This document shows, piece after piece, positions 15,322 to 34,566 of a stretch of DNA of 64,000 nucleotides (position 1 is its first letter; the number at the start of each line of letters is the position of its first letter). A program made the translations under genes and the position numbers. The notes under the pieces were generated by a model. That model saw only the letters and a program-made list of their open reading frames with translations, was not told the DNA's origin and did no database searches. The DNA comes from Cyanosarcina radialis HA8281-LM2 (GTDB lineage: Bacteria > Cyanobacteriota > Cyanobacteriia > Cyanobacteriales > CCAP-1448), in the NCBI GenBank assembly GCA_019359615.1, contig JAHHHA010000003.1, positions 248,001 to 312,000 of the forward strand. Direction: 5' to 3'.

Positions 15322-15637
15322 CCAAAACAATTCACAATTCGCAGTTCACAATTCGCAATTGTTAATTGGGGTTCAAAGCTATCGATTCTGCCACACCAGC
15401 GAGACAACCTATACCCTTGCCACCTAAGCAGGCGAGTCAATAAACTAGCTGAGGGCTATTCCCATGCCCCATGCCCCATGCCCTATGCCTCATGACCAAT
15501 GCCTTTTTCTATCTCAATCTTTCTTTAAGTATAGTTAAACTAGAATTTAGATCGAGTTAGATGGTTTTGATACCAAAGACTAAGCTCCATCTAGCCGATA
15601 AAGAGTTGAGTTAGAGCAGCAGGCAAAGAAAATTCGC
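15322..15637. other. Intergenic region upstream of ftsH
   Basis: 316 bases with no gene. AATTCGCAATTG-type repeats at about 15328-15362 are followed by a run of CCCATGCCCCATGCC units (about 15460-15495). The segment 15500-15637 is AT-rich and should hold the ftsH promoter. Confidence 0.45.
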
Positions 15638-27784: not shown

Positions 27785-28067
27785 TATCTAGAGGTAATTT
27801 CAGCCAGTTTGTCCTCAAAACCTATTAATTGTAGGGCATTTTTTAGGCGATCGCCACGATTTTTGCCAACTATGCAGCTTGTGGAAGGAGTTTGAGGGAG
27901 ATGTTCTTTTAATTATCGCTCTTCCTCTTCATTTTTGAAGCTGGAGCGATCGCTTGCCTGCGCGGAGCGCGTATCGATCTTTAATAATTCTACTCTTTTA
28001 TTACACTTGTTACACTTATTACAGTTATCTTAAAAGTGGCATTGTTTGCCCTCACCTGAGATTTGCC

Positions 28068-28535
28068 ATGAATAAGTCGATCGAACTTCCCGATTCTGTC
28101 TTTGTCCCGGAACCAGACGCGCAAGCGATCCAACGCTTAGAGGTCGTGCTGGCTCAAGCTCACCCGAAGCTGGTGGGGAGCGATGGAGAAGAGATCGAGA
28201 TTCCAGACTCGGTTTATCAAATTCTGCGCCAGGTAATTCACCAGATGGCAGCAGGGCGGGCAATGAAGCTAGTTCCTTACGATCGCTACCTCAGCAGTCA
28301 AGAAGCGGCGGATTTACTCAACGTCTCGCGCCCTTACCTATATTCCCTATTGGAGCAGGGGCAGATTCCCTACATTAAGGTAGGAACTCACCGACGCATC
28401 CGGTTTGAAGACTTGATGGCGTACAAGCAGCAGAGAGATATGCAGCGCCGTCAGGCTTTGAGCGAACTAACGGCTTTGAGCCAAGAATTAGGCTTCTACG
28501 CCCCAGAAACTCCAATGTCCGAGAACAACTCATAG
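28068..28535 (+). CDS. Excisionase-family (HTH) antitoxin
   Basis: 155 residues from ATG 28068 (MNKSIELPDSVFVPEP). The N-terminal half is helical and acidic (IQRLEVVLAQAHPKL, YQILRQVIHQMAAGRAMK). An excisionase/MerR-type HTH follows at about 78-125: LSSQEAADLLNVSRPYLYSLLEQGQIPYIKVGTHRRIRFEDLMAYKQ. The gene ends 3 bp before the PIN toxin gene. In this class the DNA-binding partner neutralises the toxin and represses the pair. Upstream in-frame sequence to 27954 is low-complexity and AT-rich (LLFYYTCYTYYSYL) and is excluded. Confidence 0.85.
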   Translation: MNKSIELPDSVFVPEPDAQAIQRLEVVLAQAHPKLVGSDGEEIEIPDSVYQILRQVIHQMAAGRAMKLVPYDRYLSSQEAADLLNVSRPYLYSLLEQGQIPYIKVGTHRRIRFEDLMAYKQQRDMQRRQALSELTALSQELGFYAPETPMSENNS

Positions 28536-28538
28536 ACG

Positions 28539-29093
28539 ATGGTGGCTGTATTTCCTGTCATCCTCGACTCTTGCGTACTTTACCCGATGTACCTCAGAGA
28601 CACCCTGCTGTCAGCGGCGGAAGCTGGGCTGTATCGGGTGTATTGGTCGCAGTCGATTTTAGATGGAGCGATTCGCAATCTGGTAGCCAACGGACAAATT
28701 ACCGGGCCGCAAGCGGATCGCCTGGAAAGACAAATGAAGCTGGCTTTTCCAGAGGCTACGGTAGAGGTAACGGAACGCCTGATTCCCTGCATGGATAACC
28801 ATCCTGGCGATCGCCACGTGTTAGCAGCAGCTTTACTTGCCAAAGCTCAGGTAATTGTCACCGACAACCTCAAGCACTTTCCCGCCGAATCTCTGGGGCA
28901 ATTTCGAGTTGAAGCTCAGAGTGCAGACCAATTCTTGACTTACCTGTACGACTTGTTTCCTGAGTCCATGCTTGAAGTCCTCCAGACTCAGGCGAGCGGG
29001 TTGAGGAACCCACCGATGTCTGTTGACTCGCTCCTCAATCTCTTAGAAAAGTCTGTGCCTACCTTCGTTAGCCGATTTCACTCTCGATCGTAA
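28539..29093 (+). CDS. PIN-domain toxin (ribonuclease)
   Basis: 184 residues. The PIN fold has acidic residues in the expected places: VILDSCVLYPMYLRDTLL (first Asp), WSQSILDGAIRNLV (Glu position occupied by Asp), HPGDRHVLAAALLAKAQVIVTDNLKHFP (the D-x2-H-x-L-A-A-A and TDN motifs). A C-terminal helical region (LLNLLEKSVPTFVSRF) follows. It is predicted to cleave RNA when released from the antitoxin encoded 3 bp upstream. Its position at one end of the island beside HerA-NurA-MTase fits a defence/stability function, but the TA pair reads in the opposite direction. Confidence 0.87.
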   Translation: MVAVFPVILDSCVLYPMYLRDTLLSAAEAGLYRVYWSQSILDGAIRNLVANGQITGPQADRLERQMKLAFPEATVEVTERLIPCMDNHPGDRHVLAAALLAKAQVIVTDNLKHFPAESLGQFRVEAQSADQFLTYLYDLFPESMLEVLQTQASGLRNPPMSVDSLLNLLEKSVPTFVSRFHSRS

Positions 29094-29474: not shown

Positions 29475-30596
29475 TCAAGGTTGCATGATAATATCAACTT
29501 CACCTGGTTTTTTTGATTTGTCTCCAAACAAAGCGGTTTGAGTTTTCTTTTTATAGGGTTGTGTTACTACTTCAAGAGATTTTGTCGGGAAGACTTCACG
29601 CAAAACCTCTAAGGTAGTTTGTTTCGTAAACTCCCTGGCATCAGTTCTAACATATACAATTGCTTTACTATCCATAATATCAGCACATTTACTGAATACT
29701 TGTTGTAATAACTCTCGATATGCAGTTTTTGATTCAAATTTATTTTGCCACTTATCGCTAATCCAGATAGGCTTATTGGAACCACCAAGCATCCAAAGAC
29801 GCAACCACTGATCGTAATGATAATTAGTAAGTTTGTAGTATGGAGGAGATGTAAACAGAAGATTAAAAGGTTTTTGAGTGCCGCAAACAACTTTTTTAGT
29901 TAATGTATCAACTAAAGACGTACTATCACCCAGTATGACTCTACCACCTTCTAAATTAGGACTTCCTTTAGCATAACGCCATTCTATTCGCCGTAATAGA
30001 AACTCTACCGGATCTATTTCTGGAGGTGTTAGGTGTTTTCTTTTCCACCAGTTTATAGAATAATCAGGACTCATTGATTTCCCTTGGCGCATCTGATTTG
30101 ACAGTGATTGTTCTCTCCTTCCATGTAAATGAACTAGTATTATAGCCATGAGTGTTGCATCAACTATGCTGCACTTCCAGTTAAGTTCCTTGCGAACAGC
30201 TAATAAGTAGCGTAATACATTTAGCGAATAACAAAACTGAAAAAACTCAGGCAAATCATCTATCTCTTGCTGCTCGATAGAATTAGCCACATCTGCAAGT
30301 TGTTTAAGACGTTTTGTGACATTAACTTTTAGTGCAGGCTTCAACTTTACAAAGCCATAAAGCCACCCAACAGGATTAATTTCTATGCCTAACCCTGAGC
30401 GATTCATTGCTGCTGCTGCATAAACACTTGATGCACGACCTGCAAATGGATCGATGATTACATCTCCAGGTTTTGAATAGTTTTCAACCACATGAAATGC
30501 AAATTCTTTAGGAAACATAGCGTAGTACGGACCTAAACCAGACCATCTACCTATAGCTGAACTCAAGCTAAGCTGGTTACTAACTTCATGCATCAT
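29475..30596 (-). CDS. DNA (amino-)methyltransferase linked to HerA-NurA
   Basis: 373 residues. An amino-methyltransferase with SAM-binding motif I DPFAGRASSVYAAAA at about 49-53, preceded by a motif X-like segment (GLGPYYAMFPKEF), followed by GIEINP (motif II) and catalytic motif IV TSPPYYKL at about 255-262. The order X-I-IV with a long spacer (about 200 residues) leaves room for a target-recognition region in the middle. TSPPY is typical of N4-cytosine and some N6-adenine enzymes, and base specificity cannot be called. The start overlaps the stop of the NurA gene by 4 bp, so it is translated as the third cistron of the operon. AT-rich, with no HIP1 octamer seen. It could protect host DNA from the NurA nuclease. 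Confidence 0.88.
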   Translation of the reverse strand: MMHEVSNQLSLSSAIGRWSGLGPYYAMFPKEFAFHVVENYSKPGDVIIDPFAGRASSVYAAAAMNRSGLGIEINPVGWLYGFVKLKPALKVNVTKRLKQLADVANSIEQQEIDDLPEFFQFCYSLNVLRYLLAVRKELNWKCSIVDATLMAIILVHLHGRREQSLSNQMRQGKSMSPDYSINWWKRKHLTPPEIDPVEFLLRRIEWRYAKGSPNLEGGRVILGDSTSLVDTLTKKVVCGTQKPFNLLFTSPPYYKLTNYHYDQWLRLWMLGGSNKPIWISDKWQNKFESKTAYRELLQQVFSKCADIMDSKAIVYVRTDAREFTKQTTLEVLREVFPTKSLEVVTQPYKKKTQTALFGDKSKKPGEVDIIMQP

Positions 30597-31957
30597 TTTC
30601 CATTTTCCGCCATAAGTTCTTTTGCCAGATTTTCTAAAACTTTATTACCAAGACGGAGAGGAATAGCGGCTTCTGCATTTGCTGAAACTAGCGGAACTAA
30701 AGCATTAGGAAAACGAGAAGAGACCAATCTATCTAAAAGCCCAACTGCATCTGCAAGACGTGGATAATGAAATTGAGTGGCTTGAGTTAAATCTCTATGC
30801 TCAGGAGAAAGAAAAGGTAAAGTAGCTACGATACGCGCCCCGCATTTAGTTTTATAAAAAAACTTGCGGCCAAAGTAGGTAGCATCACCGTAGGGTCTTG
30901 TACTATCAGAAAAAATAATATTTTGTTTAATGTATGAATCTGTTAATAACCCTACTGATTGAGGCGGAAAGTTTCCGAATCCTCCATCTTCCTTTCTATC
31001 CAAATCTTCAAAATGTTCTACAAAAGTTCCAGTTTTTTCCACGCCAACGAGAAGAATATCCTTTCCTTCTGTAAATTGTTTTGCTACCGAATTAATTCGG
31101 CATAGTTCCTGATATATAGCTTGGCTAATCCATGCTGGTTGTCCAAACACTGCTAATTGACCATCAATGACAATTGCCAATCTACGTAAGCTAGAAAGCC
31201 ATTTCTTTGCCTCTAATGTTCTTAAAATATGTACCATCCATACTCGTTCCCAAACTTGCATTATTTCACCAAATATAGCACCATTTGTACCTGCTGGATT
31301 CATTCTTTCGTGTATACGTAAAGCATCAGTAGAATATAAAGAACGTGATAAGTTACACGAGCAAGTATACTTACCATTCCCTCGTAAATAATCGTTATTC
31401 TGTGGACAATCTTCATAAGGACATTTTTGAGTTCTATCGGTAATAGGTTTATAAGCTAAGAGAGACTCATAAGTATCGAGTAAAGACTCTCCATCTTCTG
31501 ACATTTTTACTGAACTCAAAACATCAAATATTGATTTCCTCAATGAATCTTTGGCGGACCTTTCGCCTTCACAAACTACATTACAACCCGGCAAAGCACA
31601 ATCGATGGACTCGGCTTGCTCTATAGTTTTAAATTCTTTAGGGTTAACAGGACGCTGCCGATCGAGCTTTTGCATCTTAGCAACATCTAAAATCACGGAA
31701 GCTACTGTCACATAAGAAGCTTCTGCCCCAGGAAAACCATTTTTTATATCTACTTCTGCATGACTACCATCTATCGCTATTAATAATTCTGGTATCCAGC
31801 TACCAGGATGAATCTGTAATGGTTGGAGTATTTTTAAAGAGCTTGTATTTTCAGATGAAGTTTTTACTTTGTAACTTCCAAGTAATTTTTGAACGCGGTC
31901 GCTTTCTACAAGACGGCGCAAGGGTTGGTATTGGGCAAATTCTCCTTCGTATGGCAC
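30593..31957 (-). CDS. nurA: NurA-domain nuclease
   Basis: 454 residues. The NurA signature is AIDGSHAEVDI at about 61-71 (catalytic Asp with small residues), followed by AEASYVTVASVILD. A second acidic site is in LAIVIDGQLAVFG and a third in the C-terminal SLLTDSYI-like strand (VGLLTDSYIKQNI). A Cys-rich insertion sits in the middle: CPYEDCP ... YTCSCNLSRSLYSTDALRIHERM, which could bind zinc. The terminal region has YPRLADAVGLLDRLV and NAEAAIPLRL. NurA is a 5'-3' nuclease that works with the HerA hexamer. Here it starts 3 bp after the herA stop, the classic HerA-NurA coupling, but followed by a methyltransferase instead of Mre11-Rad50. Confidence 0.85.
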   Translation of the reverse strand: MPYEGEFAQYQPLRRLVESDRVQKLLGSYKVKTSSENTSSLKILQPLQIHPGSWIPELLIAIDGSHAEVDIKNGFPGAEASYVTVASVILDVAKMQKLDRQRPVNPKEFKTIEQAESIDCALPGCNVVCEGERSAKDSLRKSIFDVLSSVKMSEDGESLLDTYESLLAYKPITDRTQKCPYEDCPQNNDYLRGNGKYTCSCNLSRSLYSTDALRIHERMNPAGTNGAIFGEIMQVWERVWMVHILRTLEAKKWLSSLRRLAIVIDGQLAVFGQPAWISQAIYQELCRINSVAKQFTEGKDILLVGVEKTGTFVEHFEDLDRKEDGGFGNFPPQSVGLLTDSYIKQNIIFSDSTRPYGDATYFGRKFFYKTKCGARIVATLPFLSPEHRDLTQATQFHYPRLADAVGLLDRLVSSRFPNALVPLVSANAEAAIPLRLGNKVLENLAKELMAENGK

Positions 31958-31960
31958 TGG

Positions 31961-34063
31961 CTATACCTCAAATTTCTGAATTTGTACTGGTATTACAAAA
32001 AGATTACTTAATGTTTTAACACGAAGAAAACCTTTATCTTGTGCGCGACGTATTGATGATTCAAAATCCTCAAAATCATAGTATTTGCGAAGTTCTCTTG
32101 TTTCATCAGTATTGTTCAGATGTCCGATAAACCAATTGGCTGTATTCTTGAGAATATTTCTTTGAATGCTGCTAACCTCTTGAGTAGCGTACACCATACC
32201 AATATGATATTTTGCTCCCTCTTTGGCAGTTCGTACCCAGACATCTTTTAAATCCATATCTGTACCTGCTGGCAAAAGGTTATGAGCTTCTTCTAGATAG
32301 ACGATAATCTCAGGTATATTTTTCTCGCCTTTGCGAAAGAGGCTCTGATTTTCTCGAAAAATGTGCCACATTAATCTTTCTGCTGATGATTTATTAATTT
32401 CAGGTTCACCACTTGATTGGTCAATAATGACTAATTTTCCATCTTTCAAGTGTTGATATATCTCTACTGCGTAATCAGTGGTTGTGGTACTGGTGTGCTG
32501 ATTGCGAACTTTACCAATTTGTCTAGAACCGTTAGGTCGCACAAACATTTCTAAGAGTTTCTTCAAATCTTCATCTGCCCAAGGGTCTCCAGATGCTCTG
32601 GGGCGTTCTGTAATATACCAGTTTTCAAATTTTTGATAACTACTATCTTTATCTATCATGAAACTATAAAGATACTCGAATGCGGTTGCCAACTCCGACC
32701 ATGTGGGCGTTTCCTTCTGAAGAATTTTAGCAGCCGACTCATAATTAGCATTTTCAGCAGTTTCTGCACTTGTTTGTAAGTTTGTTATCAGTTCTTTATT
32801 AAATAAGTTTTTAATATCTGGTTGAAGGGTTTGAGGAGGTTGAAAATCTGCTTTTTTAAGTAAAGCTCGGTAAACTAGTACACGACGCTTATATCTTGTC
32901 ATTGCACTCCGATCGTTTTCGTCAGGACGCTCAAAAACTACTTGTCGAAAATTTTGAATATACTTCGATCCATCTGCTACTAAAGTTGCATCAATAATTT
33001 CTTTGCCAATTTGAAGATTACCGTCAGCAAAGAAATTTAAAAGCATTAACTTACGCTTCGGATCGTTAGGATGCGCTAAGATTCCATATGTTACAACATC
33101 TTCTTCTTTACCAGAAAAATCAGATTTCCATACATTCTTTATCGCCGAAGGATTTTTCTGCTGATTGATATCTTGTTCATTTTCATTTGCATATTCCCCA
33201 TTGGGATCGAAAACTATTTGACCAATACGATGCGGGTGTTTATCTGCAAATCTCAATTTAAATACCGACTGTAAAATAATTTTGGTAGTATTAGACTTAC
33301 CAGTTCGAGTCATGCCAAACAATGCAGTTTTTTGTCCAAGCAAATCTTCTGGCAGAAGCTCAACGCCTACATCTGATACTCCCTGAAATGAACGATTAGT
33401 TGATGCATACCGAATTTTTCCAACTATAACTGATTGACTAGTTCGTTGTCGTTCACGATCTGGATCTCGATAATTGACTATAAGCGATAAAGCTTTGTTA
33501 TTCGGCTTGTAAACTTTTAAACCTCTATTAGGATAATAATTAGAAATATCACTGCCAAAACGTAAAACCAAGGTATCAGGCGCTTCGCTATCAGAAGCGC
33601 GATCTAAAAAAAATGTACCAACAACTTTACATCTAACACCAGCATAGGATAGTAAATGATGTGTTTGAAAGTCCATCATACCTTGACTATCCCAGTGTGT
33701 ATGTGTATCTTCTCGACTCGCTCTTTGTGCTGCTTCAACTCGAACCCGTTCGGCTTCAACCGCATTTGGAAGTGCAGCAGCATCCATAACGCGCAAAAGT
33801 AATACGGATGCATCTTCAGTTTTGTAGTCAGTAGATTCTTCTGGATTGATACGGGTTGCAATTAGAAAACTTAAACTAGGAATACCGCCAACTTGCTGGC
33901 GATGTAGATCGTGTATCTGTACTAATGCAGTTTCATAGCCAATCGAATAGACTTCGCCAACATACTGATTTGCCTGAATTAAAGTTGTAAAGATTTCTTT
34001 AGCTATTTTCTCAGCAGATTTATCTTGATCGTCTTGAAATGCCTCTTCTAGTTTTGATCCCAT
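31961..34063 (-). CDS. herA: HerA-like hexameric ATPase/translocase (DUF87)
   Basis: 700 residues. The N-terminal 220-240 residues contain the HAS-barrel-like region ([16 protein letters not shown] at about 35-50). Walker [13 protein letters not shown] is at about 249-256 after KTALF, then [13 protein letters not shown], a long helical insertion (about 340-520), and Walker [15 protein letters not shown] at about 588-600, with [22 protein letters not shown] and [23 protein letters not shown]. This is the HerA/FtsK-family DNA-translocase layout. It is probably a ring that feeds DNA to the NurA nuclease encoded 3 bp downstream. First gene of the three-gene operon; AT-rich codon usage differs from the neighbouring housekeeping genes. 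Confidence 0.9.
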
Positions 34064-34462
34064 AAAGCAACTGTTCCTATTTGATTAAAAAAAATAATTT
34101 TATACTCTAGCAATTATTTTACCTGTTAAGTGCAATTTTTCTGCTGTATTTACTCTTCTCGCTTATCAATATCTAAATTAAATAGTTGATTAGAATCAAA
34201 CGGTATTTTGGGGTAAAAGCGCAATTCTACTTATTTCCCATTTTACTGGCTAACCACTGATGAATCCGATCGAACCATACAGGAACGCCAGGTTTACCAG
34301 ATCTTAAGGATGCGATCGCCTTCTATACATCAAACTCTACAAGCTTTAGCGATCGCCTTTTACGATCGATCGCCCCACTATCTTTGGGTGTTGACGGTAG
34401 ATGACTCACGAGTTGCTATATCAAGATAGAAAAGCCGATCGCGGTCAAAACTAGAAACGACA
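34064..34462 (-). promoter_or_regulatory. Upstream region of the HerA operon
   Basis: About 400 bases between the operon start and the tRNA-Ala terminator. The part next to herA (34064-34140) is very AT-rich. Read leftward it has a TATAAA word (complement of 34098-34103) with a TTAACA about 19 bp before it, a plausible promoter for the operon. The rest is ordinary HIP1-containing DNA (GCGATCGC at about 34313 and 34351), so the composition change falls near 34,150-34,300. No gene seen. Confidence 0.4.
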
Positions 34463-34493: not shown

Positions 34494-34566
34494 TGGAGAA
34501 TAGGGAACTCGAATCCCTGACCTCTGCGGTGCGATCGCAGCGCTCTACCAACTGAGCTAATTCCCC
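34494..34566 (-). tRNA. tRNA-Ala (anticodon CGC)
   Basis: 73 nt. The acceptor stem GGGGAAT/ATTCTCC carries the alanine identity wobble G3:U70. The D arm is GCTCAGTTGGTAGAGC. The anticodon stem CTGCG/CGCAG encloses loop ATCGCAC with CGC in the middle, which reads GCG codons. The T arm is AGGGATTCGAGTTCCCT and the discriminator is A. CCA is not encoded. A HIP1 octamer lies within the anticodon arm. The gene sits at the right border of the accessory island and could be an integration landmark. Confidence 0.95.

Follow-up and report, generated by a model that had tools for sequence, protein, structure and literature searches.

The window analysed here, a stretch of 64,000 nucleotides from contig JAHHHA010000003.1 of Cyanosarcina radialis HA8281-LM2, carries on its minus strand an operon of three genes arranged head to tail. 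The first gene, at 31961..34063 (-), encodes a HerA-family hexameric DNA translocase ATPase of 700 aa (PF01935, E=1.7e-10). It is followed after 3 bp by the gene of a 454 aa NurA nuclease with a four-Cys insertion (30593..31957 (-), GTG start; PF09376, E=3.3e-12), which overlaps by 4 bp the last gene, that of a 373 aa DNA amino-methyltransferase (29475..30596 (-); PF01555, E=3e-14). All three proteins exceeded the Pfam curated cut-offs, and no other gene belongs to the operon in the window. The open reading frame (ORF) coordinates and the Pfam matches bear out the arrangement described in the initial annotation, and every feature that it had listed, the Cys-rich insertion of NurA included, proved accurate.

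The three proteins of the operon

The catalytic motifs of HerA are intact and invariant in its relatives, with the Walker A motif present and a Walker B of the form YLEEAHN. The closest solved chain was TdpA (phmmer against the PDB sequences, E=1.7e-17); in a profile search of the PDB this chain reached 99.7 bits and the next one 57 bits, and several HerA chains from solved anti-phage complexes were also matched weakly. By sequence, HerA is homologous to TdpA, while calling the two orthologues would go beyond the evidence. Against the NCBIfam model HerA_antiphage (NF042943) the protein scored 48.7 bits, where the cut-off is 800. In three loci from metagenome-assembled genomes (MAGs; L006, L015 and L021) HerA is frameshifted into pieces, through either sequence error or decay.

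The catalytic motifs of NurA are likewise intact, D63, E237 and D265 being invariant in relatives. In the insertion, C179, C184 and C199 are conserved in all 26 aligned sequences and a fourth Cys lies nearby; in the more distant L031, which is outside this alignment, the insertion is partly lost. An apparent resemblance between the insertion and the zinc ribbon of RPA70 was rejected (E=0.1 in the PDB profile search). The predicted NurA model (predicted local distance difference test, pLDDT, 79) was nearest in fold to TdpB of the TdpAB complex (8wfd_G; Foldseek and VIA-align), with Z 20.5 over 321 residues. The next matches were Sulfolobus NurA (Z 15.3) and Deinococcus NurA (Z 13.6), canonical NurA proteins ranging over Z 10-15. 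Since the profile search of the PDB gave no significant sequence match for NurA, the link to TdpB depends on the predicted fold.

In the methyltransferase, motif I (DPFAGR) is N-terminal and motif IV (TSPPY) C-terminal, and both are intact. In amino-methyltransferases an SPPY motif suggests N4-cytosine methylation, thus the product is probably N4-methylcytosine. About 80 columns are invariant among 20 homologues spanning eight phyla. The predicted model is of Rossmann type (pLDDT 88), and its comparison with solved structures gave no telling neighbour beyond the Rossmann methyltransferase fold.

Conservation of the triplet and exchange of the methyltransferase

In a scan of 84,980 species genomes, in which NurA alone served as the query, 22 relatives were retrieved, and HerA, NurA and the methyltransferase had the same order and strand in 20 of the 22 loci. 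Since the query was NurA only, the recurrence of the methyltransferase is independent evidence, and chance falls far short of explaining the arrangement. The initial annotation had considered that the triplet might be unique to this genome, which is not the case: the hosts belong to Cyanobacteria, Chloroflexota, Poribacteria, Abditibacteriota, Gemmatimonadota, Acidobacteriota and Planctomycetota, with one gammaproteobacterial MAG. There were two exceptions. L023 lies on a short contig and is a truncated locus, matching over HerA and the first part of NurA but not beyond, and in L020 (Roseithermus) a complete Type I restriction-modification (R-M) system (hsdRMS) adjoins HerA-NurA. The flanks of the triplet loci hold no fourth gene common to all of them. 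The NurA and methyltransferase trees are concordant on supported nodes, therefore the module has been inherited as a unit. Two of the triplets (L012 and L013) are nearly identical although their MAGs are assigned to Poribacteria and Gammaproteobacteria, respectively, so that either the triplet was transferred recently or a contig was misbinned.

Within Cyanobacteria the module is rare and scattered. NurA of the window-type family was found in 3 of 292 cyanobacterial genomes and the HerA profile in 3 of 386; among the same 386 a close methyltransferase was present in the window genome only. In a set of 61 genomes, made up of that of the window and the 60 nearest to it, two had the methyltransferase, and both also carry HerA-NurA. 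Thus, within the clade, the methyltransferase occurs only in genomes with HerA-NurA, and the possible tie to a different system in relatives, also considered at the outset, was not encountered.

This distribution bears on the view that HerA-NurA resects broken DNA ends, the role put forward for the pair in archaea and Deinococcus, and that the methyltransferase is a mechanistically unlinked neighbour. The NurA fold is indeed related to that of the Sulfolobus, Deinococcus and Thermococcus enzymes, and the canonical herA-nurA pair was reportedly placed beside rad50-mre11 in thermophilic archaea by Constantinesco in 2004. However, the sporadic presence in Cyanobacteria, the carriage by mobile elements and the consistent coupling to a methyltransferase speak against a repair function. 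Neither rad50 nor mre11 was found in the operons, and an SbcC-like gene, the sole one among the annotated flanking genes, lies only near L033, about 1.8 kb away. We regard a repair role as very unlikely.

More distant HerA-NurA pairs (HerA about 28-39%, NurA 19-29% identity) are accompanied by other methyltransferases. While the partner in the window clade is a permuted PF01555 enzyme, a distant homologue of it stands downstream of HerA-NurA on a haloarchaeal plasmid of Halorarius, and a homologue stands upstream of the pair on a Deferribacter plasmid. In two cyanobacterial genomes (L031 and L032) a beta-class PF01555 enzyme with the opposite motif order lies directly upstream of HerA, and in Vibrio prophages a Dam-like enzyme is convergent with HerA-NurA. 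Altogether, a stand-alone methyltransferase is adjacent in 29 of 33 readable loci, a Type I system in one, and neither in three related plasmids of Nostocales; in L035 and L036 the contig ends before HerA. Elsewhere in the flanks of the 33 loci only 6 of 593 ORFs were methyltransferase-like, as judged by detection models built from the classes already seen, which other classes could escape. The swapping of non-homologous methyltransferases fits the prediction of a restriction-modification role.

Some individual loci show further peculiarities. On the Deferribacter plasmid (L028:5952-11206) HerA is interrupted by an IS605-type TnpA/TnpB element. In Spirulina sp. a complete triplet is preceded, at a distance of 0.8 kb, by a beta-class methyltransferase of the L031/L032 kind (L005:4048-5106), possibly a second methyltransferase of the module. 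An extra homologue of the haloarchaeal enzyme, in genome G351, was discarded, having no HerA-NurA nearby.

Mobile carriage and the origin of the window copy

The module is cargo of type V-K CRISPR-associated transposons (CASTs) in Calothrix elsteri and in genome G014. In L031 it is placed between tnsB-tnsC-tniQ on one side and a MerR regulator and Cas12k (E=1.4e-187) on the other; in L002 (Calothrix elsteri, NurA 89% identical) it lies between TniQ-TnsC-TnsB and MerR with a Cas12k gene that runs off the contig. Both loci agree with the published V-K order (tRNA, array, cas12k, cvkR, cargo, tniQ, tnsC, tnsB; PMC9938897), in which the cargo stands between cas12k/cvkR and tniQ-tnsC-tnsB. In L003 (Hassallia) an intact MerR gene and a TniQ remnant flank the module, beside a tRNA-Cys. 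The MerR identity of the regulator was assigned by Pfam, and Rfam returned tRNAs only on the CAST loci. The L031 element itself (L031:5226-14970) is a compact type V-K transposon whose visible cargo consists only of the beta-methyltransferase, HerA and NurA, and a tRNA-Leu is found at 15351-15434.

In the window, a CvkR-like MerR regulator remnant was detected at 34239..34349 (-), between HerA and a tRNA-Ala(cgc) gene. It is a pseudogene of 37 codons with an in-frame stop, and it resembles the L003 MerR at both the protein level (tblastn, 59% identity, E=1.5e-8) and the nucleotide level (blastn, 77% over 96 nt, E=1.2e-8). The tRNA-Ala(cgc), found by ARAGORN at 34494..34566 (-), points at the module; in V-K CASTs the tRNA is usually directed toward the left end (PMC9938897), and this gene is likely the former transposon attachment site. 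Since the decayed CvkR-like fragment persists between tRNA-Ala and HerA, the window copy probably arrived near this tRNA as type V-K CAST cargo and has since lost the transposition genes. No remnants of TniQ, TnsB, TnsC or Cas12k were found in the window, nor were attachment-type direct repeats flanking the module, and in the empty-site comparison with relatives the synteny around the module was lost.

Other mobile elements carry the genes as well. In the Vibrio prophages the block of HerA, NurA and the Dam-like enzyme lies between integrase and excisionase, and further relatives of HerA-NurA were found on plasmids, one of them archaeal, and on a viral contig. R-M systems are able to act as addiction devices, and such carriage by CAST, prophage and plasmids would suit a module which kills the cells that lose the transposon, prophage or plasmid, phage defence being a side effect. 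However, many chromosomal copies, and the one in the window, have been retained although no mobility genes are visible with them, and the biochemical mechanism would be the same as in an immune module, with a difference in the selective benefit only. Stabilisation of mobile elements as the primary role is in our opinion most improbable.

Proposed function and comparison with known systems

We consider it likely that the operon is a single restriction-modification-like immune module, in which self is marked by methylation and unmarked DNA is degraded. The methyltransferase would mark the DNA of the cell, probably as N4-methylcytosine. The hexameric translocase HerA would join the RNase-H-fold nuclease NurA in one complex, which would engage unmarked incoming double-stranded DNA, pump it and degrade both strands. 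The methyl mark would stop HerA-NurA from attacking self, by analogy with the phosphorothioate mark and TdpAB, and the module would thereby exclude phages or plasmids. A restriction-modification logic had been put forward in the initial annotation, and it gains support from the exchange of partners, from some neighbours of defence-island type, from the carriage by CASTs, prophages and plasmids, and from the kinship to TdpA and TdpB, the nearest solved relatives by sequence and by predicted fold, respectively.

TdpABC reportedly degrades phage DNA that lacks phosphorothioate, the mark blocking TdpAB on self DNA. This system (PDB 8wet, 8wfd, 8y1k) likewise consists of a HerA-like translocase, a NurA-fold nuclease and a modifying enzyme. 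In place of the sulfuration by TdpC, the third gene here is a PF01555 methyltransferase, and there is no TdpC in the operon; TdpB has 358 aa and a low identity, about 15%, to the longer window NurA with its Cys-rich insertion. Canonical HerA-NurA of archaea and Deinococcus shares the same two enzyme folds, with a weaker NurA fold match than that of TdpB, and to our knowledge it is not methyltransferase-linked or a sporadic mobile cargo. The HerA-NurA of T. kodakarensis degrades both strands of double-stranded DNA, and the authors of that study have suggested that it acts against viruses (PMC12977600). In Sir2-HerA and DUF4297-HerA a HerA hexamer is also paired with an effector, whereas the effector in the window is NurA with a methyltransferase and neither a Sir2 nor a DUF4297 gene is present in the operon. 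The HerA/FtsK capture systems and DndFGH resemble the module in that a HerA/FtsK translocase feeds invader DNA to a nuclease (PMC10853773); NurA is unmentioned there, and the window module is without DndFGH and Orc/Cdc6 components.

In PADLOC-DB 2.0.0 no single system was matched by all three proteins. NurA had no match; the matches of HerA and the methyltransferase were of modest score and confined to generic models, for HerA and for Type II methyltransferases, respectively. The literature search found no paper describing HerA, NurA and a methyltransferase as a defence system, although subscription journals may hold one. The layout of TdpABC and the ICETh1 operon discussed below make the triplet less unprecedented than the initial annotation had supposed. 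On the best reading, the module is a methylation-based counterpart of TdpAB and is not categorically new.

Several observations weigh against an immune function of the restriction-modification type. Tiamat TmtA adjoins two copies (L014 and L017), L017 is also near a Type III methyltransferase and a UvrD-PDDEXK protein, and Type I genes are found near L020 and L021, but many loci have ordinary metabolic neighbours instead of defence islands. The specificity regions of R-M enzymes usually diversify, while residues 144-186 of the methyltransferase, between motifs I and IV, are unusually conserved across phyla, with 15 invariant residues, and are as conserved as the catalytic parts. This segment could serve as a surface for target recognition or for docking. 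Its conservation suggests that the phyla share one fixed target or, alternatively, that the segment docks to HerA-NurA; in the latter case the methyltransferase would be a subunit of the restriction complex. Furthermore, the three related Nostocales plasmids (L025, L026 and L046) carry an XRE-like regulator, HerA and NurA with no DNA methyltransferase gene next to them, and a search of the rest of the Nostoc and Tolypothrix plasmids for the methyltransferase classes under test was negative. These may represent a regulated or differently marked version, and since a nuclease without a mark would endanger the host, this plasmid clade may work in another way.

The last such point comes from Thermus thermophilus ICETh1, a mobile element that resides in a tRNA gene. 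Its operon (Tth111II - NurA - TdtA - PF01555 methylase; PMC5365140) also combines NurA, the HerA/FtsK ATPase TdtA and a PF01555 methylase, and TdtA and NurA are required for DNA donation, while deletion of the methylase has a minor effect (PMC5365140, PMC7767461). The main alternative is accordingly that HerA exports genomic DNA processed by NurA, so that it can pass to other cells, the methyltransferase being accessory. The ICETh1 operon, which was compared by description only, differs in that NurA precedes TdtA and a Type IIG enzyme is present; next to the window module there is no Type IIG gene, no integrase of an integrative and conjugative element and no competence-linked gene. In addition, the module rides on transposons and prophages already equipped with their own mobility genes, and its partner methyltransferases are exchanged yet rarely lost, a pattern not needed for transfer. 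A role in DNA donation seems unlikely to us.

For the immune module a wider generalization can be proposed, to which we give an even chance: a distinct and so far undescribed restriction-modification class of bacteria and archaea, with processive HerA-NurA as the common effector, interchangeable methyltransferases of several classes, methylation sensed while pumping, and spread by CASTs, prophages and plasmids. If this holds, the HerA-NurA pair, traditionally classed with DNA repair, would also serve as effector in a modular restriction system, in which a change of methyltransferase could change the self-mark. TdpABC, the Thermus donation operon and ordinary R-M systems would then be connected through the module. 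The question of defence versus repair in archaeal HerA-NurA would become testable, defence having recently been suggested for Thermococcus (PMC12977600). The module would also add a defence cargo to type V-K CASTs; in the text of a survey of Tn7-like cargo (PMC8649781) HerA and NurA are unmentioned.

The end of the methyltransferase gene is adjoined in the window by two genes at 27954-29093 (+), which encode an HTH_17 protein and, 3 bp further, a PIN-domain protein, likely a toxin-antitoxin pair.

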